A stretch of 64,000 nucleotides of DNA from Closterium sp. NIES-65 (lineage: Eukaryota > Streptophyta > Zygnematophyceae > Desmidiales > Closteriaceae). The notes beneath the pieces were generated by a model, which worked only from the letters and a program-made list of their open reading frames with translations, was not told the DNA's origin and ran no database searches. The translations under genes and the position numbers were made by a program. This document shows positions 26,675 through 41,104 of this stretch, piece by piece (within the stretch, counting starts at the first letter, position 1; each line of letters opens with the position of its first letter). The stretch covers positions 124,001 through 188,000 of the forward strand of contig CANXME010002280.1 in the NCBI GenBank assembly GCA_948144175.1. Direction: 5' to 3'.

Positions 26675-34129
<7,455 letters not shown>

Positions 34130-35604: not shown

Positions 35605-36168
35605 GAATCATCTAAGCAGCAGCAGCAGCAGCAGGCGCTGGTTCTGGCAGGAACTGCACCGGAACATGCTGCAGCATCTGAGCCCACAGGTCTAGCGGCC
35701 CTGGAATGCAATCTGCAGCATCTGAGCCAGCCTTTCTTTGAGGCGTCTTGAAAAACATCTAAGCAGCAGCAGGTTCCGGCTCTGGCAGAAGCTGCAGCAG
35801 CACGTTCTGCAGCATCTGGGGCCACAAGTCCTGCGGCCCGAGCATGAACTTTCCAGCATCTCAGCCGGATAGCCCTTCCTTGAGGCGTTCCAGAAAAAAA
35901 TTTAAGCAGCAGCAGCAGCAGCAGCAGCAGGTTCTGGCTCTGGCAGCAGCTGCAGCAGCACGTTCTGCAGCAGCTGAGCCCACACGTGCTGCAGCTCGGG
36001 AATGCAGTAGTGCAAGCACTCCTCGTGATTCAACTCCGGTATAACCCCTGGTGCGAGTCCGGTCGAAGCACCGTCACCGTGGGTCTAGGCAGCAGCAGGC
36101 ACCGGCGCTGGCAGAAGCTGCAGCAGCACGTCCTGAAGCATCTGAGCCCACAGGTCCTTTTCCAGGCC
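35605..36168 (-). pseudogene. Four decaying copies of the 3' end of the GT61-TBL gene
   Basis: Blocks at about 35605-35720, 35760-35835, 35900-36075 and 36085-36168 repeat the last 70-170 bases of the coding sequence at 36226-36400 (core CTGGCAGAAGCTGCAGCAGCACGTTCTGCAGCATCTGAGCCCACAGGTCC-like). The third keeps the segment for the DCxH box but with changes. Each is joined to a CAG run of different length. Confidence 0.85.
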
Positions 36169-36225: not shown

Positions 36226-37865
36226 CTAGGCGTCAACAGCAGGCGCCGGCTCTGGGAGTAATTGCAGCAGCACGTTCTGTAGCATCTGGGCCCACAGGTC
36301 CTGCGGGCCTGGAATGCAGTAATGCAAGCAGTCCTCGTGGTTCAACTCCGGAATGAACCCCTGATGCGAGTCCGGACGAAGCACCGTCATCGCCGCTACA
36401 TCCAAGTACACGCCGCCCACCTCCTCCACTGCCGCCCGCGCCAGCTCGTTCTGCTCGTGAAACTTCCCCCAGAAGAACGGCAGGTTGTCCGTGGGACCCG
36501 GCACGAGCAGCGGCTTGTCGTGTTCCGAGCAGTTGGCATGGCCTTGCACGGTGGTTCGATAGATCAAGAGCGCGTCCGGGAGCTTGTTCCGGAGAAATCG
36601 CACCGTCGAACGGACCGCTGAGATGAAGTGTCGGTCCGGGCGGTAGTGCGCGCCGCGATTCAGTATAACCACGCGGGCGCCGGTGAGCAAAGAGAGGCGG
36701 GCGAAGGGGACTCGGTCGAACTTGATCTGCGAGTTGGAGAGCTGGAGGTAGTCGTGGCGAATGAACCGGATGGTGAGATTGGCGCACACGTTGCTGTGCA
36801 GCTTGTAGTCTCGACAGAAAGAGTGCCTGGCATGGTCTGGTTCGATCAGCTCGCTGCATTCCTTGGGGATCGTTTCCTCCACGGCCCACGTGGCGGGTTT
36901 CTTTACATGTGTAAGCATGTTGTTCACCAGCACGCGCACAAACTGCTCCTGTAACGAATCGCCTATAAGGAGTACAAGCGCGCCGCTCCCGTCGCCCTTC
37001 TCCCTCACAGCCTCCCCTTTGAAAGCCGCCTCTTCCCTCTCCTCCTCCTCCTCTTCTGTCAGCGGCATTCCTGTTCCATTCCACCTTCTCCCTCTCACCC
37101 AGTCACACACCACTGGGCCATCAAAAGCATCCCATGCCCCACACTTACCCTCCGTGTCCCACACGTATTTCAGCTGGGGCCGTACGTCCCACTCCTCCTG
37201 CCGCACCTTCCTCTCTTCTGGAGGAAGTTTCATAATGGAATCTGCGATTTGATCTGCTTTGGAGACCACGACAGCAGTAGGGGATGCTGCCATGTGTCTT
37301 TTGTCGCAGTAATTCGAGTAACCCTTGAATTCCCAGGGTAATCGCCTCGGCCTCGGGTCCATTTTCCAGCTGCCTTCTGCTGCCACACACTCCTGCCATT
37401 TCAGAAACTTTTCTTTCAGACCTGCCCGGCTGACCTTGCTACCTGGAATCTTCGTCCGGAACCCCTCCCCAGACCTGTCGAGGAGGTTCGGGTCAAAACT
37501 CTCCGAAGCAAACCCATCGTGGAGAACGCTTTCCAGGACCGTTCTCAACCGCTCAATACCGCAAGCCAGGGAACCTCTAGGCAAGTACACTGACGACCCA
37601 CCACCTTTATCCCCATCCTCCTCCTCTGTATCCTCCCAAAAAGCAACCCCAGAAGCACCACCGGCACCAGCACCGGCATCACCATCGCCGCCACCTCCAC
37701 CACTCCCGACCTCTCCCCATCTGTCTCCACCGCTCCCTGCCCCCGCATCTGCTGTCTCCACCACTGGTTCCTCTGGGCATTCCACCAGGTAGTGCTTCAC
37801 ACCTGCTGCCAACGCTAGGTTTCTGTACAGCTGCCTTCCCCCGTCCGGATACACTGACTCTGCAC

Positions 37866-37937
<72 letters not shown>

Positions 37938-40900
37938 GAATTTCGATGACAGAGGAGTGGGAAGGCATGAAGAGGGTGTTTACAAGGGCATTATCGCAGG
38001 CGACGAACAGCAGAGCCCGTTGGAACAGCGCTCTGGCTGGGTGCCACGGGGAACAGGGTGGGAGAGGCGGGGGGGGGGAAGAGGGCATGAAGAGGGCATG
38101 AAGAGGGCATGAAGAGGGTATTTACGAGGAAGTTATCGCACACAACGAAAACCAGAGCTCGTCGAAACAGCGCCCTGGGTGGGTGGGAGCAGGGGAGGGG
38201 CAGCGCGGGGAGCTTGGAACGCAATTCAGATTCGAAACAGTCAGCCGACAAAATTATCGGCTATTCAGCTCAAAAGCAATGATGACAGCACGCCACTCAC
38301 TTACCTTCTTGGAGCGGCATGTTTCGTCTGTACACGGCGACTCTATCCTCGGTATAGAGCTGCTTCAGTATCCATTTCACCGCACGTAGCGCTGCAGCCA
38401 GCGCAGCAGCTTGCACTGTGGGCAGACGGGATGGGGGAGCCGCCACCACCACCACCCAATCATGCTTCAAACGCCCATCTATAGACCCCATAAATCCCAT
38501 AGGGACCACAGGCAGCTCCCCTGCTGCATCGTGTGCTCCTTGTTCTGCCAGACCCCCAGGTGCAGGGGGGCGGTAGGAGCCGTCTTGAGAGAAGAGCGGC
38601 AGGCCGGAGGGGGGGAAGAGGTGGCGGGCGCGGAAGGCGTGCAGGAGAGACGGGCTGGGGTGGCCGCATGGGGGAAATAGCGGCTGGTAGAGAAGGCGGT
38701 CAAAAGATGAGAGAGGGAAAAATGGGGGAAACGGGGAACGGGGAAGGAGGCTCAAAGTCTTGAAAAACCCCACGCCAGATACACAAGCATGCGTGCATAC
38801 CATGTACAGCATGCGAGCAAAGAGCAGCGAGGAGTGCGACATGGCATGGATGGCAGGAGTGCGACATGACATGGATGGCAGGAATGCGACATGGCATGGA
38901 TGGCAGGAGTGCGACATGGCATGGATGGCAGGAATGCGACATGTCATGGATGGCAGGAGTGCGACATCTCCTGGGTTCACCCCTCCTGGGTTCAACCCTC
39001 CTGCCTGGGTTCACCCCTCCTGCCTGGGTTCAACCCTCCTGGGTGCACCCCTCCTCCTGGGTGCACCCCTCCTGGGTTCACCCCTCCTGGGTTCACCCCT
39101 CCTGGGTGCACCCCTCCTGGGTGCACCCCTCCTGGGTTCACCCCTCAGGGATCAGTGAGGTGTGCGCCATGGCATGGATGACATTCGCTGTTTGTGTATT
39201 TGCGTGCAGTGCATGCAGTGCGTGGGCGCACTTACCATGTAGAGGGTGCGAGCAAAGAGCAGAGACGAGTGCGCCATGGCATGGATGGCACTCGCTGAGG
39301 GCCTCAACCCCACCGCGGCCTGCAGTGTGTGTATGTGGGCGCGCGTGAATGTGCTTGCACATGTGTGTGCTTGCAGTGCGTGCAGTGCAGTGCGTGCAGT
39401 GCAGTGCGTGCAGTGCAGTGCGTGCAGTGCAGTGCGTGCAGTGCAGTGCGTGCAGTGCAGTGCGTGCAGTGCAGTGCGTGCAGTGCAGTGCGTGCAGTGC
39501 AGTGCGTGCAGTGCAGTGCGTGCAGTGCAGTGCGTGCAGTGCAGTGCGTGGCCGCACTTACCATGTAGAGTGTGCGAGCGAAGAGCAGTGAGGAGTGCGA
39601 CATGGCATGCACGGCACTCGCTGTGGGCCTCAACCCTACCACGGCCTGCCAGATGCCGCGCACCAACTGCCACGTAGGGAGAGGGAGGAAACGGGTGGGA
39701 GGGGGAGAGAAGACGCAAGGATGCATTAAAGCGTGTCTGTCTGAGCAGCTTTGGAACACCCAACCTAGCTTATGTGTCTCGCTCTCACAACTTACCTTTC
39801 TGTTCTGCACTGCAACTGGTATGCGCCTCAGCAGCAGCATGGCAGGCGCCAGTGACAGGAAGAGAGGAAGCTTCTCCGCCATTTCCGAGAAGACCACATC
39901 GGACGGCAAGCGGGCGGCGGAAAGAAGGTTGAGGAGGGAAGGGAAGGCGGCAAACTGGGTGCCTGAGGGGTAGTCGAACTGAGGGAAAAAGGGGGTTGGG
40001 GCGAGTTGGGGGTTGGGGGAGTGGGGTGAGGAAAGAAGGGGTGAAGAAGCAGAGAGGGGGTTGAGGAGGAGAGAGGGGGTAGAAGAGTGGGAGAGGAAAG
40101 TGGGGGGAGTATGGGATAGAGGGCAGAAGGCGTGGACGCAGAATGGAGAGGGATGAGGAAGGGGGAATGGCGGTGTCAAATAGGCGAGTCACTCACATCA
40201 GCCAATCGGTCGCCGCATCTCCCAGCGTCGAATAGATGCGTCTGGTTGAACACCTGACCCCTCCAATTCACAAACAGATGGAGAATGGAGGAAAAGTTGA
40301 GTCACTCACATCAGCCAGTTGGTCGCTGCATCTCCCGGCGTCAAACAGATGCGTCTGGTTGAACACCTGACCCCTCCAGTTCACGAACACGTTCTGCAGC
40401 CGGAAAAGCTGCCCGGACCATTCCTTCAGGTTGCCCGGATCCGGTATTTCCACCTGTAATGACTCCGGCCACTCCGCCTGCTCCTCCAAAAATCTTTTCA
40501 TTTTCAAGACCGCTTCTGCACACTGTGCTGGGACGACCCTGGTCATCTCAAGCTCATCTGGGATCTCCGGGCAGAATGCAGGGAACTTTTTCTGCTGCCC
40601 GGAGGGGGTCTGATCAAATAGGTCAACGAATTCTCTGTTCCAGCATGCCTCAATCTGCCCCAGGGCACCTGAGCAGGGTGAAAAATCCGGGCAGCTCCCT
40701 CCTTTACACCCCCCTCCTCTCCCCCGCACATCCCCTCCTCCTGCATAGAAACCCAAGGAAACAACCGAGAGATCTGCACCATTGATTCGCGCGGTCGTGG
40801 ATTCATCAGCCGCCACGGGCCTCTGTGGGCCGTCGGATTCCCCAGATGCGCCTTCCCAGAGTACCACCTCCGATCCTGATGCTCCCTGAGCGCGACCAGC

Positions 40901-41104
40901 TCGACCAATCAGCTTCCTCCTGCTGACGCTGCTATCATCGCCTGTCCAATCGCTGCTGCTGCTGGACCCGATTCTAGTGTCAGCTCTGGCGCTGGCTGGC
41001 GAGGAAGCAACGGGCCGCGAATGGACTGACAGGTGGAGAAAGACGAGGAAGAGGAGGATGGATTTGTATGGAAAGAGCTGCGTGTAGCCGAACCGGAGTG
41101 TCAT
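36226..41104 (-). CDS. GT61-like glycosyltransferase fused to TBL/DUF231 O-acetyltransferase
   Basis: Inferred exons (minus strand): 41104-40310, 39978-39796, 39666-39562, 38683-38305, 38036-36226; phases agree and give 1,090 aa. Residues 14-28 (KSILLFLVFLHLSVH) form a signal anchor, so a Golgi type II protein is likely. The part up to about residue 560 fits GT61/DUF563: LQNVFVNWRGQVFN, then the block CDNALVNTLFMPSHSSVIEI where family members have HGAGLTN-LFMP, and LYRNLALAAGVKHYLV. The catalytic-type His is replaced by Cys. A serine run and acidic linker follow. The C-terminal part is a PC-esterase of the TBL family: LLIGDSLQEQF (near residue 846, nucleophile Ser) and DCLHYCIPG (near 1058, Asp and His). 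TBL proteins acetylate cell-wall polysaccharides. The last exon encodes both domains without a break. Confidence 0.75.
37867..37932 (-). repeat. (CTG)n microsatellite, polyserine on the coding strand
   Basis: About 21-22 trinucleotides coding for a serine run directly after the VIEIRT block, within the GT61-like C-terminal part. Confidence 0.93.
38085..38195 (-). pseudogene. Decayed copy of the start of the last GT61-TBL exon
   Basis: It repeats the exon part RALVFVVCDNFLVNTLFMPS with its own acceptor. The exon would enter in the wrong phase after the preceding exon, while the copy at 38036 enters in phase. The 10-bp unit GAAGAGGGCAT is amplified three times next to it. Confidence 0.8.
38800..38968 (-). 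repeat. 25-bp minisatellite derived from an exon
   Basis: About five units of GACATGGCATGGATGGCAGGAGTGC. On the minus strand it extends the HAMSHS(S) part of a third, partial copy of exon 39666-39562, whose end (LLFARMLYM plus GT donor) is at 38803-38830. Confidence 0.85.
38968..39150. repeat. 13-16 bp minisatellite
   Basis: About twelve units of the type CCTCCTGGGTTCACC in the same intron of the GT61-TBL gene. Confidence 0.9.
39230..39320 (-). other. Near-complete extra copy of a GT61-TBL exon
   Basis: Minus-strand copy of the exon at 39666-39562, lacking its first seven codons. It has an open frame (AAVGLRPSASAIHAMAHSS...), a donor GTAAGTG and an acceptor CACTGCAG, so it could act as an alternative or extra exon. 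Confidence 0.75.
39372..39550. repeat. 14-bp minisatellite
   Basis: About twelve units of GCGTGCAGTGCAGT between the two exon copies. Confidence 0.93.
40189..40258 (-). pseudogene. Copy of the end of GT61-TBL exon 1
   Basis: It repeats 40310-40385 with its GTGAGTGAC donor; two indel-type differences break the frame. It lies in intron 1, about 120 bp downstream of the true exon end. Confidence 0.88.

Follow-up and report, generated by a model that had tools for sequence, protein, structure and literature searches.

A Closterium gene joining a putative decayed GT61 glycosyltransferase half to a TBL/PC-Esterase domain

Structure of the fused gene

Can a single gene carry both a glycosyltransferase (GT) of the GT61 family and an O-acetyltransferase of the TBL/PC-Esterase kind, and, if so, what might the glycosyltransferase half do there? 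These questions are raised by a locus in Closterium sp. NIES-65, a single-celled alga close to land plants. The locus lies within a stretch of 64,000 nucleotides (contig CANXME010002280.1, positions 124001-188000), referred to here as the window; the contig is labelled C1982 in our genome-wide searches, which covered an assembly of 874 Mb in 2,400 contigs. Five exons on the minus strand (41104-36226 of the window) splice in frame to a product of 1,090 amino acids without an internal stop. All have GT..AG borders and compatible phases, in agreement with an earlier note, made from the sequence alone, that had placed four exons with matching phases upstream of a long last one. The same note had read that last exon as one open frame reaching all the way between the GT61-like block and the TBL end, and exon 5 is indeed open over all of its 1,811 bases, compared with a longest open stretch of 242 codons in 500 mononucleotide shuffles. 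An alternative acceptor at 38174 leads to a stop at codon 505, shortly past the junction. The parts of the gene are as follows:

40310-41104, minus strand: exon 1, amino acids 1-265, with the N-terminal hydrophobic stretch, a Cys-rich region and the start of the GT61-like half (NVFVNWRGQVFNQTH) (splice model)
39796-39978, minus strand: exon 2, amino acids 266-326, GT61 N-lobe including motif 1 (splice model, alignment)
39562-39666, minus strand: exon 3, amino acids 327-361 (splice model)
38305-38683, minus strand: exon 4, amino acids 362-487, CGHPSPSL block and second GT61 lobe (splice model)
36226-38036, minus strand: exon 5, amino acids 488-1090 and the stop, with the end of the GT61 lobe, the linker and the whole esterase domain in one open frame
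37429-37938, minus strand: linker, amino acids 521-690, including YRNLALAAGVKHYLVEC and CGIERLRTVLESVLHDGFASESFDPNLLD (splice model)
37867-37937, minus strand: trinucleotide repeat encoding the Ser tract of the linker (repeat scan)

Contig C21 holds a second copy, probably that of the other haplotype, in which all five exons are present. It differs from the window gene by 5 codon substitutions (2 synonymous, 3 other) and by gaps totalling 27 bases in exon 5, its Ser tract there being the shorter of the two. We consider the fused gene almost certainly real. A hydrophobic stretch near amino acids 15-30 (mean hydropathy 1.9 over 15 residues, on hydropathy only), together with an N-x-T sequon after FN that the window product shares with the database proteins P0002, P0006 and P0014, suggests a lumenal protein of the secretory pathway.

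Descent of the N-terminal half from GT61

Of the two domains that a Pfam search of the spliced product might have been expected to return from the earlier note, PF13839 (PC-Esterase) was found (E 5e-11), but PF04577 (GT61) was not, up to E 5. An NCBIfam search of the same product gave nothing useful, and phmmer with the whole product against the PDB gave chance matches only. The GT61 relationship emerges from profiles. A six-sequence profile of the GT half, searched against all PDB chains (to E 10), returned 7 matches, all of them POMGNT2 (E 8.3e-4 to 0.016). Among related proteins, P0006 matched positions 8-136 of the 137-position PF04577 profile at E 1.5e-4, its 22.5 bits lying below the cut-off of 27 bits; P0002 reached 14.0 bits, while P0014, P0010 and P0023 had no match. 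In hhalign, the GT halves aligned with 7 bacterial GT61 sequences plus POMGNT2 over 250 columns (probability 96, P 2.7e-9), with the bacteria alone at P 3e-6 and with POMGNT2 alone at P 1.6e-4. The three GT-half subfamilies taken singly gave P 4.3e-5, 4.1e-7 and 8.6e-6, compared with P 0.059 for the best of 60 column shuffles and P 0.5 for the esterase half.

A stand-alone GT61 gene of the same genome, C1652 (L032), matches PF04577 over its whole length at 51.8 bits and serves as a bridge. The window product aligns with it over 302 residues at 30% identity (117 bits, in a set of 70 proteins), and intron 1 of the window gene has the same place and phase as in C1652 (...CSDQLAD/FDYPSG versus ...CHADGQ/FHYKAK). 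By eye, the linker pieces YRNLALAAGVKHYLVEC and CGIERLRTVLESVLHDGFASESFDPNLLD also resemble the C-terminal end of C1652. Around C1652 and a second stand-alone GT61, C1276, no esterase motif or match was seen in the 9 kb read. The absence of both contigs from the PF13839 list for the genome is weaker evidence, since that list holds scored candidates and omits even the window's own esterase. On these alignments, the N-terminal half is very nearly certain to descend from GT61, and the earlier note's pairing of a GT61-derived half with a TBL-type half in one gene is borne out by the profile, the C1652 alignment and the PF13839 match. A further locus, L033 (C1712:2291000-2300000), is GT61-like; it has HGS and a VFNATH block resembling the one in the fused proteins. 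A tblastn search of the P0006 GT half against plasmid records gave one weak match (E 0.7), within an annotated GT61 gene, which was used solely as a pointer to bacterial GT61 sequences. A scan of the genome_contigs collection yielded 2 loci, which played no further part.

The esterase half

The C-terminal half is recognized directly, with PF13839 matching amino acids 1023-1075 at 43.5 bits, above the 27-bit cut-off. A profile built from 21 relatives had one clear match in the PDB, ESKIMO1/XOAT1 (6CCI, E 7.8e-14); two other matches had E 0.1 and 0.74. The following features were located:

36244-37428, minus strand: TBL/PC-Esterase domain, amino acids 691-1085 (Pfam, PDB profile alignment)
36955-36963, minus strand: GDS motif with the nucleophile Ser848, equivalent to XOAT1 S216 (alignment)
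36364-36366, minus strand: His1045, equivalent to XOAT1 H437 (alignment)
36316-36333, minus strand: DCLHYC, the DxxH motif, with Asp1056 and His1059 (alignment)

Asp847 corresponds to XOAT1 D215 by alignment and shared motifs, and XOAT1 Asn220 is Gln852 in the window product by eye (roles of D215, N220 and H437 as given in PMC9487903). As far as the alignment goes, the catalytic residues of this half are intact, and we think it probably an active O-acetyltransferase. It falls in a group marked by NRGAHY and DCLHYC, and its one clear PDB relative, ESKIMO1/XOAT1, is distant. Xylan, on which GT61 and TBL enzymes of plants act according to the earlier note, was considered as the substrate and dropped, the evidence pointing neither way.

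Loss of donor-site residues in the GT half

GT61 enzymes bind uridine diphosphate (UDP) by one Asn and two Arg (N163, R294 and R298 in POMGNT2), H166 of POMGNT2 is the proposed catalytic base, and changes at N245 or R372 of EOGT severely diminished or abolished activity, as described in PMC13123520, whose residue numbering is consistent with the POMGNT2 fragment used for our alignment. Both stand-alone Closterium genes retain the full set: GGNYYH, GQRPGSDKRR and PHGAGL in C1652, and GGNFYH, GQRDTTRR and PHGALM in C1276. Since POMGNT2 was misplaced at motif 1 in the MAFFT merge, this motif was read off the bacterial and stand-alone Closterium rows. The corresponding places in the window product are:

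39886-39897, minus strand: motif 1 (N-x-x-H place), amino acids 293-296, VVFS, with Asn and His both replaced (alignment)
38426-38461, minus strand: motif 2 (two-Arg place), amino acids 436-447, DWVVVVAAPPSR, with the first Arg lost (alignment)
37984-38001, minus strand: counterpart of the HGAG loop, amino acids 500-505, ACDNAL (alignment)

The losses extend to the other fused proteins. Motif 1 reads VVFS in the window family, EIYH in P0006 and LPFH in P0014, and its Asn is lost in all three fused subfamilies aligned. The first Arg is absent from 10/10 readable fused rows, 3 of the 13 rows being unreadable there owing to truncation or an exon border; its place holds A, K or E in the MAFFT merge and Pro or Val by gap-free count against C1652, never Arg. 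HGA or HGS is absent from 13/13 fused rows, although these do not amount to 13 independent losses because near-copies are among them, and is present in 12/12 PF04577 matches of the genome, the Pfam model itself favoring that motif. In the window product the His of HGAG has become Asp or Cys, depending on the placement of a one-residue gap, so that the replacement reported in the earlier note stands while its identification as Cys is one of two readings. These alignments suggest that the GT half very probably cannot use a UDP-sugar as GT61 enzymes do. A non-catalytic GT half, raised in the earlier note as a caveat, appears the likelier state because residues described as necessary for active GT61 members to bind UDP have been lost.

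Fused relatives in the databases and in the genome

A protein search with amino acids 140-530 (7,999 candidates scored) returned 5 proteins at E <= 0.01, all from Closterium, and 5/5 carry at minimum the GT61 C-lobe and the esterase. P0002, from strain NIES-68, is partial and begins within exon 1 but spans part of that exon and exons 2-5; its identity to the window product is 234/300 (78%) in the GT61 half and 348/395 in the esterase half. Compared with P0002, the proteins P0001, P0003, P0004 and P0005 have different N-termini or extra or missing pieces, and one database gene model inserts repeat-derived residues. Such discrepancies are usual in automatic gene models of repeat-rich genes. Strains NIES-53 and NIES-64 are the sources of P0014 and P0017; the study of these strains describes a gene prediction that relied on RNA sequencing hints (PMC10407611). 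A model of the GT half, partly built from these same proteins, matched 14/66 database proteins, and the organisms named among those 14 were Closterium only, in a search that scores just proteins sharing short words with the query. A profile search of the protein database with the GT half gave 3 fragments and no stand-alone relative; stand-alone genes came to light only in the genome to which the window belongs.

Within the genome, the N-terminal 525 amino acids had 77 exon-level matches at E <= 0.001, many of them in near-identical contig pairs that are probably haplotypes. The pair of domains was seen at a minimum of seven loci beyond the window gene and its C21 copy, a lower bound drawn from a part of the 77 matches:

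Fused loci: contigs C1846 (L047, L049), C794 (L048), C1604 (L050), C2188 (L051, of the P0014 kind) and C1934 (L042, L043)

In L047, L048, L050 and L051, one stop-free frame runs from the motif 2 place via the HGAG place to the esterase end (833, 727, at least 753 and 645 codons from stop to stop, respectively), and no splicing is assumed there since a single uninterrupted frame spans both halves. L049 has a 607-codon frame from the HGAG place to the esterase end. The C1934 pair is cut off within the esterase by the end of the locus or of the frame; L043 reaches GDS, and L042 only the region before it. PF13839 scored above the cut-off in 5/7 fused frames, while PF04577 scored 12.4-22.5 bits, below the cut-off, in 6/7 and gave none in L051. 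Separately, the whole assembly holds 141 exon-level PC-Esterase matches, many in near-identical contig pairs, probably a large family present in two haplotypes. On C170 and C1711, GT61-like and PC-Esterase matches lie some kilobases apart on opposite strands, perhaps as unfused neighbors.

An esterase tree was made from 41/70 sequences, the other 29 being short, distant, near-duplicate or without the domain. In it, a single group (97/94) takes in the 15 fused rows along with 8 whose N-terminus is unreadable; it is adjoined by the tandem-esterase proteins P0018 and P0020 and then by unfused proteins of Closterium and liverworts. This topology, in which those 8 rows are left unscored, fits a single fusion event. 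By eye, the first domain of P0018 and P0020 has GDE or GGD at the GDS place. In a tree of the GT C-lobe (25 rows, 107 columns), the fused rows fall together with C1652, C1276 and L027 and are separated from the bacterial sequences, POMGNT2 and the other GT61s (weak, 78/98).

Possible functions of the GT half

We asked what a GT61 half with these losses might contribute to the protein. The reading we favor, to which we give even chances, is a polysaccharide O-acetyltransferase of the TBL/PC-Esterase kind with a decayed GT61 module that recognizes a glycan or docks a partner. In this scheme the protein would be placed in the secretory pathway, probably the Golgi; the GT61 module would have lost sugar transfer and retained its GT-B fold, and it would recognize the acceptor glycan or dock a partner enzyme, so that acetylation by the C-terminal domain would be directed to a particular substrate. 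The active counterpart could be a stand-alone GT61 of this genome whose motifs are intact. Recognition or docking by the GT half, taken by itself, appears somewhat more probable than this scheme as a whole, and the half is not readily taken as debris because its open and conserved frame argues against that. Several observations weigh against the favored reading. The GT half diverges more between strains than the esterase half. The window and C21 copies of the gene are too alike to give a measure of selection, with just five codon changes, 2 of them synonymous. In the tree of the GT C-lobe, the C1934 pair fails to cluster with the other 11 fused rows, so that the tree neither establishes nor excludes a single origin. 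Some GT61 relatives are reported to carry F, Y or G where the Asn would be (PMC13123520), so its loss alone is not decisive. MGA stands in place of HGA in 4/7 bacterial GT61 rows, so the HGA loss alone says little, and with the bacterial MGA rows and the Asn-less GT61 proteins in view, residue loss alone does not prove inactivity. Finally, the motif 1 His is Ser in the window family only and is kept in P0006 and P0014, and the second-Arg place may be filled by R447 in the window family.

The His of P0006 and P0014 and the R447 of the window family, along with GT61 descent and an open, conserved frame, are also what speaks for a bifunctional enzyme whose GT61 half transfers a sugar and whose esterase half acetylates the same glycan, much as the earlier note had supposed. 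That coupling is not supported, given the missing residues described as needed for UDP binding: the motif 1 Asn is gone from every aligned subfamily, the first Arg and HGA/HGS are gone from the readable fused rows and kept in C1652 and C1276, and single changes of this sort were damaging in EOGT. We therefore regard a bifunctional enzyme as very improbable. The same donor-site losses, the lower conservation of the GT half and the intact stand-alone GT61 genes of the genome would suit a structural remnant that helps the protein to fold, to sit in the membrane or to pair with an active GT61 and reads no glycan. Given that the GT half keeps an open frame at all the fused loci read, and that its window and NIES-68 versions share 78% of their residues, we hold such a remnant to be unlikely, though worth keeping in mind. 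Another alternative concerns the C-terminal domain, which might remove acetyl groups with the GT61 half targeting it. PC-Esterases were originally predicted as esterases (PMC2824669), but the sole clear PDB relative, XOAT1/ESKIMO1, is described as an O-acetyltransferase (PMC9487903), and a deacetylase seems improbable. The merging of two neighboring genes by a wrong gene model or assembly could be suspected from the disagreement of database models at their N-termini, one with repeat-derived residues, and from copies of exon pieces within the introns. However, the joint lies within one open exon in both the window gene and the C21 copy, four other loci cover the GT61 C-lobe and esterase in one uninterrupted frame, and P0006 is a single protein of 982 amino acids on a contig of only 3,386 bases, which leaves an artefact with a negligible chance.

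Repeats and neighboring features

The gene's own introns hold duplicates of parts of exons 5, 3 and 1 (38103-38185, 39214-39323 and 40179-40276, 81-90% alike). The exon 3 copy holds 84 bases in frame with splice-like borders and is a possible alternative exon. Downstream of the stop, at 35620-36158, the final 75-127 coding bases recur in further copies. Intron 3, which is shorter in the C21 copy, contains minisatellites with units of 25, 15 and 14 bases at 38830-39146 and 39372-39550. Elsewhere in the window, a 1,010-codon open frame on the plus strand (31097-34129) begins with a Cys/His spacing like that of zinc fingers and also has long Gln tracts.

Relation to known systems and implications

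Both domains are known. The GT half is profile-alignable across the domain with GT61 (PF04577; POMGNT2, EOGT, plant XAT, XYXT and core beta-1,2-XylT), having POMGNT2 as its sole PDB match and an intron and a 302-residue alignment in common with C1652; it differs from that family in scoring under the Pfam cut-off, in its lost Asn, first Arg and HGA, and in the attached esterase. The C-terminal half resembles TBL/PC-Esterase proteins (PF13839; ESKIMO1/XOAT1, PMR5 and Cas1p) in scoring above the cut-off and in keeping GDS, DxxH and the His437 counterpart, whereas its membership of the NRGAHY/DCLHYC group, the Gln at the XOAT1 Asn220 position (by eye) and the long pseudo-GT61 module before the esterase set the fused protein apart. 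PC-Esterase fusions named in PMC2824669 involve 10TM acyltransferase, EGF, filamin-like Ig, ATP-grasp and cadherin-like domains. Among these, C7orf58/CPED1 likewise combines a PC-Esterase with a large, unrelated, enzyme-like N-terminal region (ATP-grasp, cadherin-like) but is an animal protein with an ATP-grasp partner and no glycosyltransferase. Within Closterium, P0018 and P0020, sister to the fused clade in the esterase tree, likewise have a degenerate-looking first domain before an intact second one, although their first domain is another esterase and not GT61. The main text of the EOGT paper has no words beginning with Closterium, charophyte or Zygnema, and among the titles and abstracts listed by our searches of the open-licence literature, one of which listed 12 of 23 papers, we found no description of the pairing, in keeping with what the earlier note had stated. 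As far as we have seen, the pairing and the apparent repeated loss of the donor site have not been described.

What leads an O-acetyltransferase to its particular polysaccharide is an open question, and a gene family with a glycosyltransferase fold attached to such an enzyme makes it testable by removing the module or swapping it between paralogues. The stand-alone GT61 of this genome, its motifs intact, offers a ready control for the losses in the fused copy. We tentatively suggest, at somewhat less than even chances, that in Closterium and some relatives a decayed GT61 may have become a glycan-reading module that multiplied together with a TBL-type acetyltransferase, yielding a set of O-acetyltransferases in which a pseudo-glycosyltransferase would set the choice of substrate.

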